Assembly (NCBI RefSeq): GCF_021023085.1
Contig: NZ_PGCK01000011.1
Span: forward strand, 62,001-126,000
Length of the DNA: 64,000 bases
From: Methanooceanicella nereidis
GTDB taxonomy: Archaea > Halobacteriota > Methanocellia > Methanocellales > Methanocellaceae
Direction: 5' to 3'
The translations under genes and the position numbers were made by a program. Every line of letters starts with the position of its first letter. The first letter of the stretch is position 1. Shown piece by piece: positions 1 to 15,311 of the stretch. The notes under the pieces were generated by a model, which made no database searches, was not told the origin of the DNA, and worked only from the letters and a program-made list of their open reading frames with translations.

Positions 1-324
1 AAGGAAGTATATGTTGTGACCGAGATGAGCCATCCCGGCGCTATTGATTTTATACAAAAGCATGCTATGGATCTTGTGGACGTCGCGATAAAAAACGGGG
101 CGTCAGGCATAATTGCGCCCGCGACCAGGCCTGAGAGGTTATCCGAGATAAAAAGGAGATCAAAGGACTTAAAGATACTTTCTCCGGGAGTCGGTGCACA
201 GGGGGGCGATGCCCGTACCACTTTAGACGCAGGGGCCGATTTTATCATAGTGGGAAGAAGTATATATAATGCAAAAGACCCATATCAAGCAGCGATAGAC
301 CTGATAGGACAACTGCGCCGATGA
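1..324 (+). CDS. pyrF: Orotidine 5'-phosphate decarboxylase, C-terminal part
   Basis: The reading frame is open through the left edge, so only the C-terminal 107 residues are here. It decarboxylates OMP to UMP, the last step of pyrimidine nucleotide synthesis, in the cytoplasm. Seen: the TEMSHPGA loop typical of archaeal enzymes, then a barrel end with the phosphate-binding loop SPGVGAQGGD and VGRSIYNA, whose Arg contacts the phosphate in this family. The catalytic Asp/Lys cluster lies upstream of the window. The internal GTG at 16 is not the true start. Confidence 0.93.
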   Translation, partial: KEVYVVTEMSHPGAIDFIQKHAMDLVDVAIKNGASGIIAPATRPERLSEIKRRSKDLKILSPGVGAQGGDARTTLDAGADFIIVGRSIYNAKDPYQAAIDLIGQLRR

Positions 325-458
325 TGACAAAAATATCCTGATCAATGATGATCCCTATGAGTACTGAGGCTATGCAGTTTCATTAATACTGTCAGTACTT
401 TGATCGTTATCGGCCGGATCAAATATTTTTTTTATTTTTCCATACCGTCGGATAGTCA

Positions 459-788
459 TCACGCATTAAGGTTAATAAAATACTTAAGATACAGATAACC
501 CAGGAATATGATAATGCTGATAATCAACAAAAAAGCGTCCAGATATCCTCTATCCTTTTTGGACATCCGGTATTTAGGCTTATATAATTCCCCGCGGATA
601 GTGAGACCGCTGTATGTTATCAATACAAGGGCAGTGGGCACATCGATCCACGAGTGAATGGCCTGGACCAATACCTGTTCAATAATACCGCTAGAGCCCA
701 GATTGCTGACCATTAATTCAACGGTCACATAGATGACCAGTAACACGCCGGATATCTTTCTTACATAGTCAAGGCTGCGCCTGGCCAT
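459..788 (-). CDS. Small integral membrane protein, unknown function
   Basis: About 109 residues from the ATG beginning MARRSLDYVRK; an upstream in-frame ATG at 812 adds eight residues and is less likely. Three hydrophobic segments are visible. One contains an AIHSWIDVP stretch with His and Trp at the membrane edge, a little like small cytochrome-b-type anchors, but no haem motif can be proven. It lies convergent to pyrF with no operon partner. Function unknown. Confidence 0.6.
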   Translation of the reverse strand: MARRSLDYVRKISGVLLVIYVTVELMVSNLGSSGIIEQVLVQAIHSWIDVPTALVLITYSGLTIRGELYKPKYRMSKKDRGYLDAFLLIISIIIFLGYLYLKYFINLNA

Positions 789-964
789 ATTTATATTATC
801 ACCTATATACAATTAGTACCTTAAGGCTTTAAAACTTATTGGCTTAGATAATATGGGATAATATCAGTTTAATCAATTATTTGAAAAAACTTTTTTAAAA
901 AGTCAAAGATTGCGTTTAATATTTTGATTAAATATATCGGCATTCTACGCCTATTATTACCGGG

Positions 965-1603
965 ATGGATAACTTGAAAAAAAGCGTGAATTTCCTCATT
1001 ATCTTATTATTGACGGGCTCGTTCATGCTAAGTTCATGCGCTCTTTCAGTTAATATGCAGATCATACAGGAAGAGAGATATCAAGGCATCATCGAACCGG
1101 CACCGGTTTATGCCGTAGAGACCCTGGACAATTCCAAAATAATATTTTTGGAGCATAATTTACTTGCCAATGGTACGGTGGTTAAAGGAGATGCATATTT
1201 CAGGACCGTCGATTTCCCGAATTACTGGTTCAACGAAAACACGAGACAGCTAAATGGAAACATAGACTTTCCGATCAACGATTCATTAACGCTTGTATTC
1301 GGGGATATACTGACACTGACTGGCAATTTTGGCGCCGGCACCGGAAACAAATTATACGGGATCTATTCATTGCCCGTTAAAGCAAATGAAGCGACAGTTT
1401 ATTCGGTCGACCTGTTCGGAAGGATAACCCTCAGCATAAATAACAGGATGATAATTTTAGCTCCAGGGCAATCATATTCCTATACCCGGAACGAGACTTT
1501 AAAAGACAGGAACGCCACAATAGATATTTCCTATACGCACACTTATATAAACAAAGGCATACTGGATAAAAATAACATCAGGACGAGCATGGTCGCGATA
1601 TGA
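965..1603 (+). CDS. Predicted secreted lipoprotein, unknown function
   Basis: A 212-residue protein with a positively charged N-terminus, a hydrophobic segment and a lipobox-like LSSC ending at Cys25, so it is probably exported and lipid-anchored. The mature part is beta-rich and hydrophilic, with no other Cys after the anchor and no family I recognise. It is monocistronic, preceded by about 150 bp of AT-rich DNA, and followed by a convergent permease gene 15 bp away. Confidence 0.65.
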   Translation: MDNLKKSVNFLIILLLTGSFMLSSCALSVNMQIIQEERYQGIIEPAPVYAVETLDNSKIIFLEHNLLANGTVVKGDAYFRTVDFPNYWFNENTRQLNGNIDFPINDSLTLVFGDILTLTGNFGAGTGNKLYGIYSLPVKANEATVYSVDLFGRITLSINNRMIILAPGQSYSYTRNETLKDRNATIDISYTHTYINKGILDKNNIRTSMVAI

Positions 1604-1618
1604 CCATATAAGATAATA

Positions 1619-3436
1619 TTATGCTGCCTGCTGCGATTCAATTTTACCCGAGAAAGCGTTCCTGACTATCAGTATGGGCACATCAATGTTCTTGCGTATC
1701 TCGTCAACGGTCGGGGAAGGTTTACCTTCGAGCTTACCAAGGATCACGACCTTGACATTATGAGTCTCTATATAGCGTATTATGCCCGATGCAGCTTCTC
1801 TTGCGGCCTTAAACTCTACATGGACGTCTATGCCGCTTCCTTTGAACCATTCTTCGAACGTCTCGATCTCCTTTTTCTTTTGAAGGACCATCTCCTCCGG
1901 CAGGTCTTCCCAGAGAGGTACCAGAGTAGGTGTCTCGACGATGTTTAATATAGTGACGCTGCACTTGTATTCTTTTGCAAGGTTGGTGGCGATGTCGATA
2001 ATATGTCTTTCATGCGGCATTAGTTTGAATGACATCAATATTGTCGGCTCACGCTCGTCTATCTTTGAAACCGCAAGCACTTCTTTTTCAGGTATCCTGT
2101 GAATTTCCTTATTCGCGAACCGCGTATTTATCACATATATCAGCATGCCGATCGCTATCCATGATACTCCGACGATCAGGGTGATCCTCTGTGGTAAAAT
2201 AACGGCGCATAAAGAGAAAGCGCAGGCTACGAACCCTATCAAGCCGGTCAATGGCACCTTGTAATGTTTCTTACGGAAATTAATATCGAATACGAAAGGC
2301 ACCCTGAACATGGAGTCAAAATCCGCGTTCTTTAAGGCGATAAATGACAGGTTGATCAAAATATATGCGATCAGGGCACCAAATGCATATATGCCCGATA
2401 ATATTTCCACCTTGACGAATATCAGGGGTATGGCAAGTGCCGGGAAAATTATCACGGTGAACCAGGGGGTCTTATATTTCGGGTGAGTCCAGCTTAAGAT
2501 CTTCGGAAGCAGGTTATGTTTGGATAAGGAATACATAACCCTTGACGCGCCTATGATACCGGTGTTTGCAGATACGACGCAGACCAGGAATCCGGTGATA
2601 CCGGTGATGAGCACAAGTGTCTCGCCATATACAGGTATTTCTTTTGCGAACGCTACCAGAGCATTTTCTTTATTTTCCGAAAGTGTTTCCCATCCGACCG
2701 AGCCGACGGACAGTACTGAAAGCAATAAACAGAAAGTGACGACCAGTATTATAACGACCTTGATCGCTTTTGGAATGGTGTGGCTGGGACGCTTGGTCTC
2801 CTCCGCCGCCTGTGTGATGGATTCTATGCCTATGAAGGCGATAGAGCTAAGGCCGATGGCATATGCGAAATTTGTCCATGTGCTCTGCTGCTGGAACTCA
2901 AGGGCCTGGCTTATCAACCTGTCCGTATTGAACAATAGCATGTAAGCAAGGATGCTGATTACGATAATAAGAAATGTCGCGAACACCGTAAGGATATTAT
3001 TCAAAAAAGCGCTTTCGGCGATGCCCAGCAGGTTTAGTATGATCAATAATACGATGACGCCGGCAGCGATGAAATATACGTACTGGATATCCAGATGCAA
3101 TACCTGATTAAGATAGAATGAGCCTACGATAGTGAATAACGCTATATCCAGGATATAAGCCAGTATCAAACCCCATCCTGATACAAAACTCCAGAACTTG
3201 CCGAAGGCTTTTCTGGTAAAAGTCGACGCGCCGCCAGCCACAGGGAAAGCCGAGCCCAGTTCCGCGTATGCAAGTGCGGTGCATACATAAAGTATAGCCC
3301 CGATGAAGAACGCGACAGGAGTAAGGCCTGCTGCAAAAGCGGCTATTATACCGATCGCGATAAAGATATCCGCACCTACGTCTGCAAATCCCATCGCCAG
3401 AACGGAAAAAAAGGTCAGGTTCCTGCTCAATTTCAT
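1619..3436 (-). CDS. APC-family amino acid permease with C-terminal UspA domain
   Basis: About 605 residues. The first ~440 form 12 membrane segments with the family's N-terminal glycine-rich segment (ADVGADIFIAIG) and the GIESITQAAEET stretch typical of APC transporters. After a short linker, residues ~465-600 form a universal-stress-protein domain (DEREPTILMSF to DVPILIVRN), thought in this family to regulate transport by nucleotide binding. The substrate cannot be read from sequence. A GTG directly follows the stop of the upstream channel gene; the ATG four codons later sits about nine bases after a GGTGA Shine-Dalgarno and is preferred. Co-transcribed with the MscS gene. Confidence 0.85.
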   Translation of the reverse strand: MKLSRNLTFFSVLAMGFADVGADIFIAIGIIAAFAAGLTPVAFFIGAILYVCTALAYAELGSAFPVAGGASTFTRKAFGKFWSFVSGWGLILAYILDIALFTIVGSFYLNQVLHLDIQYVYFIAAGVIVLLIILNLLGIAESAFLNNILTVFATFLIIVISILAYMLLFNTDRLISQALEFQQQSTWTNFAYAIGLSSIAFIGIESITQAAEETKRPSHTIPKAIKVVIILVVTFCLLLSVLSVGSVGWETLSENKENALVAFAKEIPVYGETLVLITGITGFLVCVVSANTGIIGASRVMYSLSKHNLLPKILSWTHPKYKTPWFTVIIFPALAIPLIFVKVEILSGIYAFGALIAYILINLSFIALKNADFDSMFRVPFVFDINFRKKHYKVPLTGLIGFVACAFSLCAVILPQRITLIVGVSWIAIGMLIYVINTRFANKEIHRIPEKEVLAVSKIDEREPTILMSFKLMPHERHIIDIATNLAKEYKCSVTILNIVETPTLVPLWEDLPEEMVLQKKKEIETFEEWFKGSGIDVHVEFKAAREAASGIIRYIETHNVKVVILGKLEGKPSPTVDEIRKNIDVPILIVRNAFSGKIESQQAA

Positions 3437-3448
3437 GATATTATTCAC

Positions 3449-4198
3449 CTAATCGGATACGAACTCGCCCCTTACGATATTTAGCGCCTTATGCAGGTTT
3501 GATGTATCGTTCGATATGGATGCCGCGTCTTCGAGATTGATCGTCACTGCGAATCTCATGCCCTCCGGAGTCTGGCTATGCAGTATCTTCGCCCGCCTGT
3601 ACCCGAAAATGTCCAGCTCTTCTGTGATACGGGAATATACTTTAGTAATATCCTGTTCCTCGACATTAACGGTAAAAGACTCCTGAAGTTTGATATAATC
3701 AGCTTTAGTATAATTGATCACCATAGATCTGACAATGATCTCATTCGGTATGCAGATTATAGAATTATCGTCGCGCCTTAGCATCGTGTAGAGGCTGCCG
3801 ATCTTGAGGACCCTGCCTTTCTGGCCGATCACATCTATATAATCCCCTATCCCGAAGGCTTTGACGGTTAAAAGGCTTATTCTCGTAAAGAAATCTTTAA
3901 TGAAATCCTTAGCGGTATAAAGTACGGTAATGGTTAATAGCGCCAGCATTACCAGTAGGAACATTGAATTGGTGATAATTATATAGACCAGTAGCGTAAT
4001 GCCGACATATATTATAAGAACGGTGAATATCAACCGCATTGATTCTTTTGTGTCATCCGGGTATTCTACAAAAATATGTTTCACTACCCAGTCAGAGATC
4101 AATTTTGCAATTATCGATACTAAGATTATACCGATGATCAATACGATCTTATCGGTCTGGAAAGCCATGTCCCCGATCTCAAGCACGATAGTCACCAA
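3449..4198 (-). CDS. MscS-family mechanosensitive channel
   Basis: About 249 residues from the most upstream TTG; GTG or ATG codons within the first ten residues are alternative starts. Three N-terminal membrane segments are followed by the MscS beta domain, with KAFGIGDYIDVIGQKGRVLKIGSL-like residues around the pore-proximal fold and a C-terminal alpha/beta part. The family releases solutes during osmotic downshock. It lies directly upstream of the APC-UspA permease with no gap, suggesting a transport unit for osmotic or solute balance. Confidence 0.85.
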   Translation of the reverse strand: MVTIVLEIGDMAFQTDKIVLIIGIILVSIIAKLISDWVVKHIFVEYPDDTKESMRLIFTVLIIYVGITLLVYIIITNSMFLLVMLALLTITVLYTAKDFIKDFFTRISLLTVKAFGIGDYIDVIGQKGRVLKIGSLYTMLRRDDNSIICIPNEIIVRSMVINYTKADYIKLQESFTVNVEEQDITKVYSRITEELDIFGYRRAKILHSQTPEGMRFAVTINLEDAASISNDTSNLHKALNIVRGEFVSD

Positions 4199-4296
4199 GA
4201 CATTATAAGTACATAACTTTTATGTTTTTGTCATTATAAGATATACGTATTGATTATTATTAAAAACATTTTTCTATAATCACGTCTGCATTTACC

Positions 4297-6117
4297 ATGA
4301 TGAAAAAACCTCGACGCTGTAAATTTTTACCGGTATCAAGGGAAGAGATGAACGCTCTGGGATGGGACGAGTGTGACATAGTGCTGATTAGCGGAGATGC
4401 ATACGTAGACCATCCATCCTTCGGTGTCGCAATGATAGGCAGAGTGCTCGAGGATGCAGGATATAAGGTCGGCATTATCCCTCAGCCAGATATCAAAGAT
4501 AAAAGCTCTTTTACCATACTCGGAGAGCCGCGATTTTGCTTTGGAGTATCATCGGGTAACGTCGATTCAATGGTCAGTAATTATACCGCAAACAGGCGTA
4601 TCAGGTCGGAAGATGACTATAGCCCGGGAGGCAGAGGAGGAAAAAGGCCGGACCGCGCGGTAACAGTTTATTGTAACAAGATAAGGGAGACCTATAAGGA
4701 AAAGCCGATTATCATCGGCGGTATAGAGGCCAGCCTGAGACGTTTCGCCCATTATGATTACTGGGACGACCGGGTAAGGCAATCAATACTCGCTGACGCT
4801 CCGGCTAGCATGATAGCTTACGGGATGGCAGAAAAACCCATGATAGAGATCATGAAAGGGCTGGAAAAAGGCGATGACATAAGCGAGCTTACAAATATCC
4901 GGGGAACGGTCTATAAGACCAGGGAGATATCCAGACTTGAGGACTATGTGGAATTACCGGATTATAACGAAGTCTCAAAGAATAAGATATCCTTTGCTAA
5001 CTCATTCAAAACTTACTCGGACGAACAGGACCCCATCCATGGAAAAACATTAGTACAGCGCCATCCGAAGACGATAATTGTCCAGAATACCCCTTCCTAC
5101 CCCTTGACAACTGAGGAGATGGACAATATCTATGAACTGCCATATGCAAGAAAACAACACCCGTCATATAAAGAAGAGATCCCGGCTTTAAGGACAACCC
5201 TATTTTCTATAACCAGCCACAGGGGATGTTTCGGAGGCTGCTCTTTTTGCGCCATCGCAAATCACCAGGGGAGAATTATACAGAGCAGAAGTAAGGGTTC
5301 CATAATAAATGAAGCAAAACTGCTTACTAAAATGCCCGAATTCAAGGGAGTTATCACTGATGTCGGCGGACCTACGGCTGACATGTATATGATGGGATGC
5401 GCAAAACAGGCAACTCAGGGTACATGTAAAGACCGTATGTGCCTTTATCCGGAACCTTGCCCGAACCTGAAAAGAGATCATGAACATATAGTACAGCTCT
5501 TAAAAGCTGTAAAAAGCGTACCGGGAGTGAAAAAAGTCTTCATAGGCTCAGGGATAAGATACGACCTGGCTATGCTTGATGAAAGCTACCTATACGAGAT
5601 ATGCAAGAATAACATAAGCGGCCAGCTTAAGGTCGCGCCGGAACACGTCTCTAAAGAAGTCACGGATCTTATGTGCAAGCCTTCCATCGAGAGGTACAGG
5701 CAATTTGTGGAGAAGTATAGAGAGCTAAATAAAAAACTTGGAAAGGAGCAATATATAATACCATATTTCATATCGGGACACCCGGGAGCGACACTTGAGT
5801 GTGCCATTGAGCTGGCAGAGTATGTTCGCGATATGGGATATTATATAGAACAGGTACAGGATTTTACACCGACTCCGTCAACCCTTTCCGGATGTATGTA
5901 TCATACCGAATATAATCCTTACACGGGGAAGAAAGTATACGTGCCAAAAAGCAAAGAAGAAAGAAGGATGCAGAGAGCGCTTTTACAATATAAGAACCCT
6001 GATAATTATGATCTGGTGAAAGAGGCGCTTATGAAGGCCGGCAGAAAAGACCTCATAGGCAATAGTGAAAAATGCCTTATCCCGAGGTCAAGGCCTCTCG
6101 GGTACAGGAGAAAATAG
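4297..6117 (+). CDS. YgiQ-family radical SAM protein
   Basis: A 606-residue protein of normal length for the YgiQ/UPF0313 family. It has an N-terminal cobalamin-binding-like region (DIVLISGDAYVDHPSFG), then a radical SAM core with CxxxCxxC at C311, C315 and C318 (SHRGCFGGCSFCAI), which should bind the [4Fe-4S] cluster that cleaves S-adenosylmethionine. The C-terminal DUF3362-like tail includes DFTPTPSTLSGCMYHTEYNPYTG. The substrate of the family is not known to me. Two ATGs (4297, 4300) are possible starts. It is monocistronic. Confidence 0.93.
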   Translation: MMKKPRRCKFLPVSREEMNALGWDECDIVLISGDAYVDHPSFGVAMIGRVLEDAGYKVGIIPQPDIKDKSSFTILGEPRFCFGVSSGNVDSMVSNYTANRRIRSEDDYSPGGRGGKRPDRAVTVYCNKIRETYKEKPIIIGGIEASLRRFAHYDYWDDRVRQSILADAPASMIAYGMAEKPMIEIMKGLEKGDDISELTNIRGTVYKTREISRLEDYVELPDYNEVSKNKISFANSFKTYSDEQDPIHGKTLVQRHPKTIIVQNTPSYPLTTEEMDNIYELPYARKQHPSYKEEIPALRTTLFSITSHRGCFGGCSFCAIANHQGRIIQSRSKGSIINEAKLLTKMPEFKGVITDVGGPTADMYMMGCAKQATQGTCKDRMCLYPEPCPNLKRDHEHIVQLLKAVKSVPGVKKVFIGSGIRYDLAMLDESYLYEICKNNISGQLKVAPEHVSKEVTDLMCKPSIERYRQFVEKYRELNKKLGKEQYIIPYFISGHPGATLECAIELAEYVRDMGYYIEQVQDFTPTPSTLSGCMYHTEYNPYTGKKVYVPKSKEERRMQRALLQYKNPDNYDLVKEALMKAGRKDLIGNSEKCLIPRSRPLGYRRK

Positions 6118-6118
6118 T

Positions 6119-6691
6119 TTAATTCTTTACCTTTGAATAATTATCCATCATCTTAAATATGCTGCTGCGGTTTTTCTTTATCAATAATATCCTGTATATG
6201 TATGGTTTTGCATTCTCGTAAGAAAAGGTATGGTAATTGCTATAGTATGCGGTCGTCAGTATCATAGAGACCATATAACTTTCTCTCGTTTGGTCATCCT
6301 CGTTTATCTTTTCTCCGGGCCTGATGCGCTGTATGGAACATGTCTGCGGCATCTTCGACTTCAGGTATTGTATGCTACCGAACATAGTGGATGGTGAGTT
6401 CTTACATATTCCGGGCTTTACAAAATTGATCGAGCATAGATTATCCTCGAGGAAACAGCACCCATCTTCACCCCTTTTAAGATATGGCATCGGAATATTG
6501 GTGTCTCCGCAGGGTACCTCTATACAATAATTACTGAAAAAGTCATCAGTGTCCATATTCAGGTAATCGCTTATCCGGTAAATATCATCAAGCGTCAAAG
6601 GTATCTGCTTGTTCGTCCTGCAGCAGTTACCGCATTGTCTGCATTCGAACTTTTCAGTGATATCCTGTTTTTTGATAATTTCCTGATACAT
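6119..6691 (-). CDS. YkgJ-family cysteine-cluster protein
   Basis: A 190-residue protein with an N-terminal CxxCxxCC motif (ECRQCGNCC) and further Cys residues (EVPCGD, GCCFLEDNLCSIN, GICKNSP), the pattern of the zinc/iron-chelating CxxCxxCC family (YkgJ, PF03692). Members are thought to bind Fe-S or Zn; their reaction is unknown. It is convergent with the radical SAM gene, with adjacent stop codons. Confidence 0.88.
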   Translation of the reverse strand: MYQEIIKKQDITEKFECRQCGNCCRTNKQIPLTLDDIYRISDYLNMDTDDFFSNYCIEVPCGDTNIPMPYLKRGEDGCCFLEDNLCSINFVKPGICKNSPSTMFGSIQYLKSKMPQTCSIQRIRPGEKINEDDQTRESYMVSMILTTAYYSNYHTFSYENAKPYIYRILLIKKNRSSIFKMMDNYSKVKN

Positions 6692-6883
6692 AAGACGACC
6701 TTTTTAGATGCATAAGATGTATCGAATAACTAATCTTTGTTAAGATAGTTATGATAAATCGCTTGATTTTCTGCATTTATCACGAAACTAATACAATTTA
6801 AATAATTAAATTACTAAAATATTAGAGCAGTTATCTTAAGCAAGCAGTTATTGAAATATGCTGTCGATAATTTACACATTATG

Positions 6884-7702
6884 CTATTTACTCATAGGAT
6901 GGGTGCGGCCGTACATCTCTTTGAGGTCATCCACACTATAATGAGTGTATATCTGAGTCGTGTTAAGGGATGTGTGGCCGAGCAGTTTTTGTATGGCGAC
7001 GACATTGCCGCCGTTTTGTAGCATATGGGTTGCAAAGCTATGCCTGAGTTTATGAGGAGTTATCTTTTTATTGATGCCTGCTCGCGCAGCAAGCGATTTA
7101 ATATCTCTCTGTATCGTCCTGGGAGTCAGGTCAAATAATTTTTCTTCCCCTTCCATTTTTGTACAATATTCCTGTAGATCCCCTACAAGGCTTTCAGGTA
7201 TCAGGACTATACGTTCTTTTGCACCCTTGCCAAACACTTTTATTGTATATCTTTCAAAATCGATATCTTTCTTTTTTATGTTGACTAGCTCAGACACCCT
7301 CACACCCGTGGCATATAACATTTTTATTATTATTCTGTCCCTTGTTTCAATGGCTGTCGAGATAAGATCGTTTAGTTCGGATATAGTAAGATATACAGGA
7401 GCTTTTTTATCTATCTTTATATTATTGATGCCTTTTGTCGGATTAGCGTCGACATACTCGTTTTCCAGCAAAAAAGAGTAAAATGATTTTATGACGCTCA
7501 AAATATTGGAAACAGTAGTCCTTGAAAGGTTTTTCTCGAACATCAGGTAGTTCAAATACCTGATTATTTCCGGACGTTTAACTGTATTAAGAGGCCTTCC
7601 GATAAATTTCTTAAAATTGTTCAGGATCAGGTTATACTGCTTGATCGTACCAGGACTTGAAGATAATCTTTTTTCATCGATGAATAACTCTACCTGGTTC
7701 AT
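6884..7702 (-). CDS. xerA: Tyrosine recombinase, XerA-like
   Basis: About 272 residues, the size of archaeal XerA. An N-terminal SAM-like core-binding domain precedes a catalytic domain with the full set of residues: R135 (GVRVSEL), K162 (GAKER), H217 and R220 (HKLRHSF), H243 (LGHTSL) and nucleophile Y252 (QIYTHY). The ATG at 7702 follows a GGGAAGAT Shine-Dalgarno; the ATG eight codons upstream has none. XerA resolves chromosome dimers at dif; integrases of the same fold are the alternative. No other phage or plasmid gene is nearby, and a 28-bp near-palindrome lies ~165 bp upstream of the start, favouring a Xer role. Confidence 0.88.
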   Translation of the reverse strand: MNQVELFIDEKRLSSSPGTIKQYNLILNNFKKFIGRPLNTVKRPEIIRYLNYLMFEKNLSRTTVSNILSVIKSFYSFLLENEYVDANPTKGINNIKIDKKAPVYLTISELNDLISTAIETRDRIIIKMLYATGVRVSELVNIKKKDIDFERYTIKVFGKGAKERIVLIPESLVGDLQEYCTKMEGEEKLFDLTPRTIQRDIKSLAARAGINKKITPHKLRHSFATHMLQNGGNVVAIQKLLGHTSLNTTQIYTHYSVDDLKEMYGRTHPMSK

Positions 7703-7868
7703 ATATCTTCCCTGCCTTATACCCATATTAATTAAAGTGATAACATATTTTAAAACTTGCCGGTTAACCAGTTGATATATTAAAGGATATGGTTATAGGC
7801 TAATAATATCCCATGTGAATTAACCAAATAATGCTTAATTCATAATGCTCCTGTTTAAGAGCTTATTT

Positions 7869-7896
7869 ATGTCGTAAAATACCTATTTTGCGACAT
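7869..7896. other. dif: Candidate dif/Xer recombination site
   Basis: A 28-bp near-perfect inverted repeat: left arm ATGTCGTAAAATA, a CC centre, right arm TATTTTGCGACAT, with one mismatch between arms. Read as a Xer site it gives two 11-bp arms around a 6-bp centre (TACCTA), the 28-bp layout of known dif sites. It lies in AT-rich DNA just upstream of the tyrosine recombinase. A regulator operator or autoregulatory site of the recombinase is an alternative. Confidence 0.5.
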
Positions 7897-8300
7897 CATT
7901 ATTTTTAACAGGTAAAACAGTAGGCATATCATTTTCAAGGATAATAATATTACATAATTATGAAAATAATTATCGAAAATTTACTTATTGAATAAAAAAA
8001 TATATACAATATATTATACTAATTACCATAGTAAACGTAAGCCAATATACCTAGGGTAAACAGGCAATAAAAATATTAATAAAAATAATGATATTCTAAA
8101 AATATTATATGTAAATATTTAGATATGTATAATACATTATATACATATTATGTATTACTGTAATTTGTATATTAAGTATTATACATATTATATTAGACAT
8201 TAATAAGCTTTTAATTACAATATAATAAAATAAATTATATCCTTGAAAAGTAGATGAGAGCTTTATCCTTTACCAGACAATATATTAGCCCAAGTTCAAG

Positions 8301-8308: not shown

Positions 8309-8348
8309 CCAGAAAGTAAGATACTATTTGTATCATGGGGCTTTCAAA

Positions 8349-9023
8349 ATGTTGACCGACGCGGAAATAAAACGAATGCAATTCTTATTACAATTAAGAG
8401 AGACTCATTTTACAGACGGCATCAGGAACATGGATTTCTCCGGCGCCGACCTGAATAAAGCGGATCTTCACGGCATGCAGCTCGTCAACGTTAACTTTGA
8501 AGGCGCCATACTTGACGGCGTAAACCTCTATGATTCCCAGCTCGTCAATTGTAATTTTAATAACACAAGCCTAAAACGTGCGATACTGAGGAAGTCAAGC
8601 ATACTGGACTGTAGTTTTAAAAATTCTAAATTATCCCAATCAGATTTAAGTGATTCGGGGATATACAACTCCAGATTTATTGATACAGATATGCATTTTA
8701 CGAAGCTCATAAATTCAAAGGTCGTTAATACTACATTTGAGAACTGCCTGTTCTCAAATTCCAATATATCAGGCATATGCATGACAGGCATAATAATGGA
8801 CCGATGCGACCTTCAATATTCTATCATCGACAAATCATTCATCTGCGGATGCACATTAATGAACTCTAAATTTAATTATGCGTCACTGAACAGTGCCATA
8901 ATATATGACAATAAGATCGAAAATTCTGATACAGAGAATGTTTTAATGCTTGATGCGAAAATTGACCAGAACTTCGCAAAATTAAATAATATAAGACAGA
9001 TAGACGTTAAGATCATCACATAG
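8349..9023 (+). CDS. Pentapeptide-repeat protein
   Basis: About 224 residues. From residue ~25 on it consists of A(N/D)LxX-type pentapeptide repeats (DFSGADLNKADLHG, VNFEGAILDGVNL, CSFKNSKLSQSDLS), expected to fold as a quadrilateral right-handed beta-helix. Such proteins can mimic DNA or act as scaffolds; nothing indicates which applies here. No signal peptide is visible, so it is probably cytoplasmic. A TTG seven codons upstream is in frame, but the ATG at 8349 follows a GGGG stretch at suitable spacing. Confidence 0.85.
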   Translation: MLTDAEIKRMQFLLQLRETHFTDGIRNMDFSGADLNKADLHGMQLVNVNFEGAILDGVNLYDSQLVNCNFNNTSLKRAILRKSSILDCSFKNSKLSQSDLSDSGIYNSRFIDTDMHFTKLINSKVVNTTFENCLFSNSNISGICMTGIIMDRCDLQYSIIDKSFICGCTLMNSKFNYASLNSAIIYDNKIENSDTENVLMLDAKIDQNFAKLNNIRQIDVKIIT

Positions 9024-11709: not shown

Positions 11710-14397
11710 ATGGCGGGAAGTATAGATCACGATCATGAACATGGTCAAAGGGAACATTTTTTTAAAGATAAGGATAAAACTATTTTATTTTTAAACAATA
11801 CAGAAAAAGAAGACATCAATAAGATCGGAGGTAAAGCGCTAAACCTTTCCATTTTGATAAAAGGAAAGTTTCCTGTGCCTGAAGGTTTTGCCATCACTGT
11901 TGACATTTATGAAAAATTTCTTTTCGAAAACGGATTAAAAGAAAAAATAATTAAACGCCTGGATAATTGTGATATAAGTAATGAGACAGAACTACAATCC
12001 TGTTCTGAAGAAATAATACAGTGGATAAACAATGGCCGCATACAGGAAGAAATTTTAAATGAAATCGAGAATACGATAAAGATCATCGACGACGATACCT
12101 TATGGGCGGTGCGCTCTTCTGCCGTGGCCGAGGATCTGCCTGAAGCATCATTTGCCGGCCAGCAGGACACATTTTTGAACGTGAGGAGAGAAGATGTGCC
12201 GGAATATGTTAAACGATGCTGGGCTTCGTTCTGGAACTTCAGGGCTATCGCATATCGGCATCAGGCGAATATACCACAGGTAGATTCCGGGATCGCTGTG
12301 GTTGTACAAAAGATGGTAGATGCAAAGATATCCGGCGTTATGTTCACCGCAGATCCCGTAAATCCCGTGAATGATAATATTATTATAGAATCTAGCTGGG
12401 GACTCGGTGAATCTATAGTTTCCGGCATAGTAAGCCCTGACAAATTTACCTGCGATAAAAAAACAGGCAATATCACAGGTAAAAAAGTCAACAAAAAAAC
12501 TAAAGGCATATTTTTATCCATGGACGGCAAAGTCGTTGACATTGAAACGACAAGACAGATGTTACCGTCCCTGACAGAAAACGAGGCTAATAAGCTTGCG
12601 ACGATAGGAATGGAAATAGAACGTTATTTCGGGTCCCCGCAAGACATCGAGTGGGCGATATCCGGGGAAGATATCCATATTTTACAATCAAGGCCTATCA
12701 CGACTCTTGAAAAGAAAAATGAGACGTTATGGACAAGGGCATACGGTGATGAATACTGGGCGGATGTGACATCGCCTTTATTTTTCTCTCTGCTGGGCGA
12801 ATATCTATCCAAATACGTTCTTGGCGAAGGAAATCAGATCATGGGATATCATGAGCTCAGAGATAAGCAGCTATTGAAACTTCACAAAGGGCATATCTAC
12901 TTTAATTCCGAAGTGCTCGAGATAGTGTTCACATTTAATCCGAAGTTTTCAAGGACGAAAGAGCTGCTGAACTATTTCCCGGAAAAAGACCAGCCAAGGA
13001 TACAAAATGCCCCTACGAAAATCTTCAGGAGGCTGCTGGCAGAGCTAAGGATCGCTATCCTTGACAGGGACGGTATGATAACAAAGACAAACGATGCCTA
13101 CAACAAATGGGCTGAAAATTATATTTATGTGATGAAGAGATATGACGCCCTCGACCTGAAAGAGTTATCCGACGCAGAGCTTTATGACGAATATAAAAAT
13201 ATGGAAAACGCGTTCATAAAACATTTCCGGCTGATACGTTACGGGATGGTCACACACAGCATCGGCACCAACTTAATGATAAAAAGATGGCTTACGGACT
13301 GGCTCGATGATAAGTCCGGCCAGCTGTATTCCGGGCTTATATCAGGGCTCAAGGAGAACAAGACCATACAAACCAATATCGCGATCTGGAAGGTCTCAAG
13401 AGCGATAAGGGAATGCTGCGATGATATCGATCAACTGTTGAAAGAAGATCACAATAGCTTCATTGACAGGATTCATACCGATCCCACGATGAAAGAAGCG
13501 TCTTTAAAATATGACGAGTTCATCAGGGAATACGGCCACAGGTCCCATACAAGGGAAATCTATTTCCCGAGATGGGCGGATGACCAGTCCCTAATCGTCG
13601 ACGTGCTTAAAGCATTATTATCATCTCAGGATCTTGACCTGGTAAAAATCGAAAAGGAAAAGATCCAGGAAAGGCTAAGTACGGAGAAAGACGTTCTTGA
13701 TAAAGTTTCTAAGCTTAAGTTCGGCTTCTTTAAAAGGGCTATCTTTAAGATAGTGTTAAAATATGCCCAAACTTACCTCATATTCCGTGAAAACCAGAGA
13801 TTCTACCTGGACCATATCCTGTTCAGAGAAAGAAGGCTGTTCATGGAATATGGGAGAAGGTACGCTGAAAAAGGGATCATCGACGATATTGAAGACATAT
13901 TTTTCCTGTCGAAAGAGGAAATTTTCTCTATAGGGCGCGGAGAAAAATCCCCTGAAAAAGAAGTCATAAGATACAGAAGATCGGAATTTGAGAAATATAA
14001 GGATATATTGCCGCAAAAATTCCTGAAGGGTAAAACGGAATTTGACGATACCGTGATACATGATGAAAATATAATGAGGATCACAGGAACATCCGCAAGC
14101 CCGGGTATAGCAACAGGCATCGTGAGAGTCGTTGAATCGATTAAAGAATTGTCAGTTGTAAAAGAGAATGAGATCCTTGTTACGTCAAACACCGACCCGG
14201 GATGGACGCCGGTATTCTCAAAACTCGCAGGGCTTATCACTGAAACGGGCGGCATACTCTCACACGGCGCGGTCGTGTCGCGCGAATATGGCATACCTGC
14301 AGTGACAGCTGTAAAAAATGCTAGAAAGCTACTGAAAACCGGACAAAAGGTCACCATAGACGGAAACGACGGCATAATATACATAATGGAGAAATGA
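11710..14397 (+). CDS. PEP synthase-like / rifampicin phosphotransferase-like enzyme
   Basis: About 895 residues. Order: a His-rich leader (DHDHEHG), an ATP-grasp pyruvate/phosphate dikinase N-domain (~25-335, with GGKALNLS, VRSSAVAEDLPEASFAGQ, QDIEWAI), a long helical middle domain (~345-775), and a C-terminal swivelling phosphohistidine domain with catalytic His near residue 852 (ILSHGAVVSREYGIPAV). The PEP-binding TIM barrel of true PEP synthase is missing. This is the layout of rifampicin phosphotransferases, which move a phosphate from ATP through the His to a small molecule. The acceptor is unknown. Its stop overlaps the start of the next gene (ATGA), so the two are translationally coupled. 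Confidence 0.85.
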   Translation: MAGSIDHDHEHGQREHFFKDKDKTILFLNNTEKEDINKIGGKALNLSILIKGKFPVPEGFAITVDIYEKFLFENGLKEKIIKRLDNCDISNETELQSCSEEIIQWINNGRIQEEILNEIENTIKIIDDDTLWAVRSSAVAEDLPEASFAGQQDTFLNVRREDVPEYVKRCWASFWNFRAIAYRHQANIPQVDSGIAVVVQKMVDAKISGVMFTADPVNPVNDNIIIESSWGLGESIVSGIVSPDKFTCDKKTGNITGKKVNKKTKGIFLSMDGKVVDIETTRQMLPSLTENEANKLATIGMEIERYFGSPQDIEWAISGEDIHILQSRPITTLEKKNETLWTRAYGDEYWADVTSPLFFSLLGEYLSKYVLGEGNQIMGYHELRDKQLLKLHKGHIYFNSEVLEIVFTFNPKFSRTKELLNYFPEKDQPRIQNAPTKIFRRLLAELRIAILDRDGMITKTNDAYNKWAENYIYVMKRYDALDLKELSDAELYDEYKNMENAFIKHFRLIRYGMVTHSIGTNLMIKRWLTDWLDDKSGQLYSGLISGLKENKTIQTNIAIWKVSRAIRECCDDIDQLLKEDHNSFIDRIHTDPTMKEASLKYDEFIREYGHRSHTREIYFPRWADDQSLIVDVLKALLSSQDLDLVKIEKEKIQERLSTEKDVLDKVSKLKFGFFKRAIFKIVLKYAQTYLIFRENQRFYLDHILFRERRLFMEYGRRYAEKGIIDDIEDIFFLSKEEIFSIGRGEKSPEKEVIRYRRSEFEKYKDILPQKFLKGKTEFDDTVIHDENIMRITGTSASPGIATGIVRVVESIKELSVVKENEILVTSNTDPGWTPVFSKLAGLITETGGILSHGAVVSREYGIPAVTAVKNARKLLKTGQKVTIDGNDGIIYIMEK

Positions 14398-15311
14398 TCA
14401 TGCACACTGACATTATACACGAATACGGTGAACACACAGAATGGAACGAGAGCTTCTATTTCAGCTTTTACGATAAACAAAAAGACATATGCGGGTTCAT
14501 GAGGATAGGGCTGAAACCCAACAAGAATGAAAAAAGTGTTTTCTGCTTTTTTATGATGCCCGATAATAACCTGGTAGGCATAAAAGACAATGGCACCTAT
14601 GATACTAATGAACTATCGGTTAAAGGTTTAAGTTTTAAGATGGTCAAACCGGAAAGATCATGGAATATTACATATTCGGGGATGATGGGGAAGATCATAG
14701 GAAAAACCGCAGAGCCGGTAAAAGTATCGTTTTCATTTGATTATGAAACTTTAAATGACGTTTTCAATTATAGAGAGTGCGTAAGCGGCATTAAAGAGGA
14801 AATATCGCAATGCGTGGCATCCGAGCACCTGGAACAATTCGGAAGCATGAAGGGCAAGCTTGTCATAGGCAATAACGAATACATGATAAACGGGCTTGGA
14901 GAGAGGGACCATTCCTGGGGTATCCGTGACTGGAACGCGCCGAAGATGTGGATATGGCTGACTGCGCAATTTTCGGAGAACTGTGCTCTCAATGTTACAA
15001 AACTCGTTGTGGAGCAGGGAGAAGTTGATGCCGGTTTCATACACATTGACGGGACGAACATACCGCTGGACGCCGCAAAGATCGATACTATCTATAACGA
15101 AGACGGAAGCCCTAGGTCTTTTGCGATGGTGCTTACGGATAAAGAAGGCAAAACATATGATGTTAATGCGAATATCATTAAAAATGCCATGCTGCCATTT
15201 GTAAGCCAGGACGGTAAGAACATTTCAGTCATGCACGAGACCCTGGCAAAATATGAATTCAACGGCCTGGAAGGGTACGGCATAGCAGAGTACCTTGTCA
15301 GAAAATCCTGA
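14394..15311 (+). CDS. DUF7064-like / AttH-lipocalin-like protein
   Basis: About 305 residues; ATG at 14394 or 14400. The N-terminus (WNESFYFSFYDKQKDICGFMRIGLKPN) and the central GLGERDHSWGIRDWNAPKMW block match uncharacterised lipocalin-like proteins of the AttH/hydroxyneurosporene-synthase type (DUF7064-like), some of which act on isoprenoid lipids. It overlaps the Rph-like gene by four bases. Together they suggest a two-step modification of a small or lipid substrate; that role is inference. Confidence 0.65.
   Translation: MIMHTDIIHEYGEHTEWNESFYFSFYDKQKDICGFMRIGLKPNKNEKSVFCFFMMPDNNLVGIKDNGTYDTNELSVKGLSFKMVKPERSWNITYSGMMGKIIGKTAEPVKVSFSFDYETLNDVFNYRECVSGIKEEISQCVASEHLEQFGSMKGKLVIGNNEYMINGLGERDHSWGIRDWNAPKMWIWLTAQFSENCALNVTKLVVEQGEVDAGFIHIDGTNIPLDAAKIDTIYNEDGSPRSFAMVLTDKEGKTYDVNANIIKNAMLPFVSQDGKNISVMHETLAKYEFNGLEGYGIAEYLVRKS

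Follow-up and report, generated by a model that had tools for sequence, protein, structure and literature searches.

The window examined here, a 64,000-bp stretch of a contig from Methanooceanicella nereidis, contains a palindrome upstream of a tyrosine recombinase gene, and this raises the question of whether the palindrome is the site at which the recombinase resolves chromosome dimers. An earlier note, made from the letters of the window, had described a near-perfect 28-bp palindrome with 13-bp arms and a CC centre and had taken it for the chromosome-resolution site. The analysis reported here leads to the same answer. The palindrome is very probably the chromosomal dif site, and the adjacent gene very probably encodes its recombinase, XerA.

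The symmetry of the palindrome is as described, with 12 of the 13 arm positions pairing around CC. Read in the 11-6-11 layout of archaeal dif sites, the sequence is ATGTCGTAAAA-TACCTA-TTTTGCGACAT, where the arms pair at 10 of 11 positions and enclose the 6-bp centre; the whole 28-mer is ATGTCGTAAAATACCTATTTTGCGACAT. By itself this symmetry is only moderately unusual. Palindromes of the 11-6-11 type with 10 or more pairs number five in the window, where 40 dinucleotide shuffles predict 0.98, and those of the 13-2-13 type with 12 or more pairs number three, where the shuffles predict 0.075. Most of these are plain AT-rich repeats, and among them the putative dif site alone has three or more G/C in an arm. 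It rises above chance because it is conserved in all four genomes of its family and occurs once in its own genome. The single copy that the earlier note had expected was confirmed by a search of the 3.19-Mb draft genome, in which the 28-mer has a single match when up to 3 mismatches are allowed. The features of the region are collected in Table 1.

Table 1. Features at and around the putative dif site, in window positions
Feature	Position	Strand	Description or basis
xerA, archaeal Xer tyrosine recombinase, 280 aa	6884..7726	-	NF040815 and structure alignment; diverges from the dif site
Putative dif site	7869..7896	.	28 bp; arms 7869-7879 and 7886-7896, 6-bp centre TACCTA at 7880-7885
TTTCAAGG, conserved flank motif	7933..7940	+	sole 8-mer common to the four 120-bp downstream flanks
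ATATACAA, half of an imperfect inverted repeat	8002..8009	.	invariant in four-genome alignment A1
Pentapeptide-repeat protein gene	8328..9023	+	Pfam PF00805 and synteny

The product of the recombinase gene scores 289.9 bits with the NCBIfam XerA_Arch equivalog model NF040815, which has a cut-off of 220. The closest solved structures are those of XerA from Thermoplasma acidophilum and Pyrococcus abyssi (5hxy and 4a8e). Motif inspection and alignment to these two structures bear out the complete catalytic set that had been claimed for the enzyme, R143-K168-H225-R228-H251-Y260, and the residues are situated in the motifs GVRVSEL, GKGAKER, HKLRH, GHTS, and YTH. Each of the four Methanocellaceae genomes contains one full-length xerA above the cut-off. 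Besides the intact gene, the genome of the window species has a second, degraded xerA-like fragment that is interrupted by stops (G000:C6:95557-95904). The site had been placed about 165 bp upstream of the recombinase. It does lie upstream, but the distance to the annotated start is 142 bp, and the figure of 165 bp corresponds to the second Met codon.

The family set consisted of the window species (G000), Methanocella paludicola (G001; 2,957,635 bp), Methanocella arvoryzae (G002; 3,179,916 bp, which we take to be strain MRE50), and Methanocella sp. PtaU1.Bin125 (G003). Conservation in relatives, which the earlier note had asked for, was found throughout this set. An orthologous site is present in all four genomes, and a reversed control pattern gave 0 matches. 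The site reads GTGTCGATAAATAGTAATTTATCGACAT in M. paludicola (G001:1488890), ATGTCGCAAAATAAGCATTTTGCGACAC in M. arvoryzae (G002:206946), and ATGTCGCAAAATTGTTATTTTGCGACAT in PtaU1.Bin125 (G003:C185:67357). The arm blocks TGTCG..CGACA, which contain G/C, are identical letter for letter in the four genomes. In each case the site is situated in a divergent intergenic region, and one of the flanking genes is a pentapeptide-repeat gene. A class-wide search with the site pattern, in which these four genomes were the only representatives of the class, gave no further sites. When the phylum was searched with the pattern at 2 mismatches, the matches were mostly scattered, together with a conserved genus-level set that on inspection was linked to xerA. 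A near-perfect palindrome, TGTCGTATAATNNNNATTATACGACA, was also observed at L143 and L144 (G189 and G035), conserved in a distant genus of the phylum. In these two drafts it shows no link to a full xerA, and it is possibly the dif site of its own genus.

The linkage between site and gene varies within the family. In M. paludicola the distance is about 100 bp, close to that in the window species, and in M. arvoryzae and PtaU1.Bin125 xerA lies about 10 kb from the site, so that the two are directly linked in two of the four genomes. The separation corresponds to an inversion of about 10 kb that has one of its ends exactly at the dif site (L025 6349-16946 versus window 16-7869). Relative to the window species, the inverted block in G002 and G003 spans xerA, a radical-SAM gene, and beyond, and the site has remained with the pentapeptide-repeat gene. 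Where xerA has moved away, the site is conserved equally well or better. We infer that xerA originally lay beside dif in this lineage, because the arrangement recurs in Methanomicrobiales, and that the inversion separated the two later. The suggestion that a recombinase beside its site would be unusual does not hold. Adjacency is common in Methanocella and Methanomicrobiales, and it has already been reported for Sulfolobales (PMC2958812) and for XerS/difSL and XerH/difH (PMC5357621).

A dif site is expected near the replication terminus, as the earlier note had pointed out, and the position of the site was compared with that of orc1/cdc6-1 in the two complete relatives. The orc1/cdc6-1 gene is at about 1.2 kb in M. 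paludicola and at 1,792.8 kb in M. arvoryzae, which places the site 178.9 and 179.5 degrees away, respectively. The sequencers of M. paludicola assigned the origin to the same cdc6 gene (PMC3146512). GC skew is too weak for placing the terminus, and none of three genomes shows a clear switch at the site; in M. arvoryzae the skew changes sign clearly near orc1-1 and dwindles across a wide region surrounding the site. Third-position skew is likewise too weak as a terminus marker. A 4-mer word skew, with scores trained on DNA far from the site, has in M. arvoryzae a mean of -1.9 to the left and +2.7 to the right of the site over 200 kb per side, with large scatter, and in M. paludicola it had no predictive power by leave-one-out. 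The draft genome of the window species consists of 41 contigs, and the site (C11) and orc1-1 (C8) are on different ones. The terminus assignment is therefore based on the antipodal position in the two complete relatives rather than on the window's own draft or on the skews, of which the word skew in M. arvoryzae is suggestive.

Related 28-mers were found at xerA in a further set of genomes that, judged from relatedness and sequence, probably belong to the order Methanomicrobiales. At all eleven loci of three families (L172-L177 and L180-L184), the 28-mer ends 30-33 bp before the xerA start codon and adjoins a TATA-like stretch. At two loci of a fourth family it is 0.7-1.2 kb upstream of xerA, and two further loci, L187 and L188, have no related 28-mer. 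Across all compared sites eleven columns are invariant: C5, G6, A10, A11, T12, A17, T18, T19, C23, G24, and A27. In seven Methanomicrobiales genomes, angles of 86-166 degrees separate the xerA-linked site from orc1-1, so a terminus position is not general for xerA-linked sites. In six of these seven (G153, G172, G139, G073, G048, and G055) a second orc1/cdc6 gene is located 43-106 kb from the module of xerA and site. Possible reasons are extra active origins in these chromosomes, relocation of the module, or an added role of the site in xerA regulation.

Such a regulatory role could also be the whole function of the palindrome, which would then be an operator in the xerA promoter, bound by XerA or by a repressor to control xerA transcription and not involved in chromosome resolution. 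The short distances to xerA in the window species and M. paludicola agree with this, as does the arrangement in Methanomicrobiales, in which the site abuts the TATA region some 33 bp ahead of the start codon and bound XerA could repress xerA. However, the site is not merely an xerA operator, because it persists in M. arvoryzae and PtaU1.Bin125, kept as well or better with the gene about 10 kb away. An operator would also not be expected to retain a position opposite the origin or to have exactly the layout of a Xer site, and we consider this explanation improbable. Only a recombinase site accounts for both settings, the one tied to xerA and the one free of xerA yet at the terminus, as in M. 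arvoryzae. It is possible that the site has a dual role, in which XerA acts at dif and also dampens its own promoter, especially in Methanomicrobiales.

The constant neighbour of the site in Methanocellaceae is the pentapeptide-repeat gene, which is always divergent and 400-590 bp away, with conserved sequence in between. That the palindrome regulates this gene is nevertheless very improbable. An archaeal operator would be expected closer to its gene, better operator candidates exist in the conserved flank motifs nearer to it, and in Methanomicrobiales the related site is directly at xerA, with no pentapeptide gene among the neighbouring open reading frames listed at six loci. Hardly any weight can be given to a transcription terminator or a chance AT-rich palindrome, although the window does contain other AT-rich palindromes of similar symmetry. 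Blocks with G/C that are identical in four genomes largely refute a chance origin, and since the genes on either side of the site diverge in all four, no transcript reads into it from upstream that could be terminated.

The reading as a chromosomal dif site is supported by the single copy, the conservation in four of four genomes, the terminus position in two complete genomes, the linkage to an intact xerA, and the persistence of the site where xerA has moved away. By analogy with XerA/dif of Pyrococcus and Thermoplasma, the site would act as follows. Homologous recombination would fuse the replicated chromosomes into a dimer that carries the site twice. XerA monomers would bind both 11-bp arms of each site, and four monomers would synapse the two sites. 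Strand exchange would occur across the centre TACCTA by means of Y260, with the cleavage positions presumed from the analogous systems, and the dimer would be resolved into monomers near the replication terminus.

Outside the core site, TTTCAAGG is found on the pentapeptide side only, at 36, 46, 36, and 47 bp from the end of the site in the four genomes. When the four flanks were shuffled, an 8-mer common to all of them appeared in 3 of 1000 trials. Further out on the same side, ATATACAA..TTGTATAT form an imperfect inverted repeat. With four sequences, TTTCAAGG fits both a possible accessory-protein site and a possible promoter element. Pentapeptide-repeat proteins can mimic DNA and inhibit gyrase, and the one encoded here could have a topological role near the terminus. 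Conserved flanks are known at the dif sites of Thermococcales, and a one-sided flank at those of Sulfolobales (PMC2958812).

The one-sided position of TTTCAAGG, its spacings, which differ by one helical turn, the inverted repeat beyond it, and the pentapeptide-repeat gene that stays on that side lead to a more tentative proposal. Here dif would be a polar site with an accessory region, where a host factor bound to the flank directs or times XerA in the manner of FtsK, and Methanocella plasmids or viruses would carry dif-like sites in order to use the same XerA. We regard this as possible but rather doubtful. Dif-like sites are indeed present on mobile elements of two relatives, as is expected of hitchhikers on the host Xer system. 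In PtaU1.Bin125, L027 (G003:C1) is a 16.4-kb contig whose 75-bp terminal overlap is consistent with a circular element. It has dif-like sites at 12419-12446 and 13826-13853, 1.4 kb apart, and a weaker third palindrome at 14519. The sites lie around small genes, one of which has a DNA-methylase-like DPPY motif. The arrangement resembles plasmid pdif sites or modules, which to our knowledge are not known from archaea. M. paludicola has a second, weaker dif-like site with one mismatch to the family pattern (L124 9021-9046; G001:C1:1779020), 290 kb from dif and inside an apparent integrated element that encodes a tyrosine integrase and a D5-type primase-helicase.

A scan of viral contigs with the site pattern gave 24 matches, and tblastn found no XerA relative encoded on any of these contigs. 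Of the proteins examined, two are phage-terminase-like and one is viral-DNA-polymerase-like, and the matches were rejected as Methanocella elements. Searches of the viral contigs and plasmids gave no relatives of the mobile-element proteins, and the recombinases found in the viral contigs are only distant ones. If the accessory-region proposal is correct, the Methanocella elements and their sites would be the archaeal equivalents of Xer-exploiting elements and of cer/pdif sites.

Archaeal dif sites have been tested experimentally in very few lineages. The predicted sites of Methanocellales and Methanomicrobiales can readily serve for such tests, and in many genomes site and enzyme share one short fragment. 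Linkage of xerA and dif turns up repeatedly in Euryarchaeota, the group in which the original description of dif had the site unlinked to the gene, and the one-sided conserved flank is a concrete place to seek a partner for a XerA that acts without FtsK.

The site shares its 11-6-11 layout with the XerCD/dif system of E. coli, which differs in having two recombinases, asymmetric arms, and FtsK control. Compared with what we take to be the E. coli dif sequence, the window site matches at 15 of 28 positions in either orientation, and the presumed E. coli centre, TGTATA, is the centre of the sites in one Methanomicrobiales genus (f22). In archaea, Xer/dif systems are established (PMC2958812), and a review mentions xerA/dif modules (PMC5357621). 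In the open-access literature no paper was found that names the Methanocella or Methanomicrobiales sites, and the window site is a well-supported new member of these established systems. The XerA/dif system of Thermococcales (Pyrococcus abyssi) likewise has a single XerA and a 28-bp 11-6-11 site that is present in one copy in the terminus region with conserved flanks (PMC2958812). In contrast, the Thermococcales dif is not beside xerA and lies 122-142 degrees from oriC (PMC2958812), whereas the Methanocellaceae site is beside xerA in two of four genomes and no more than 1.1 degrees off 180 in the two complete ones. The arm sequences also differ. In Sulfolobales, dif is predicted close to xerA and has a conserved flank on one side only, as here, but these archaea belong to a different phylum, have several replication origins, and have a flank of 13 bp (PMC2958812) where Methanocellaceae have an 8-bp motif 36-47 bp out. 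Among bacteria, XerS/difSL of Streptococcus and Lactococcus and XerH/difH of Helicobacter and Campylobacter also combine a single recombinase with a site next to or near its gene (PMC5357621). Unlike the archaeal system, both depend on FtsK and use recombinases of about 356 residues, and difSL has 31 bp with an 11-bp centre (PMC5357621), compared with 28 bp and a 6-bp centre for the site described here.
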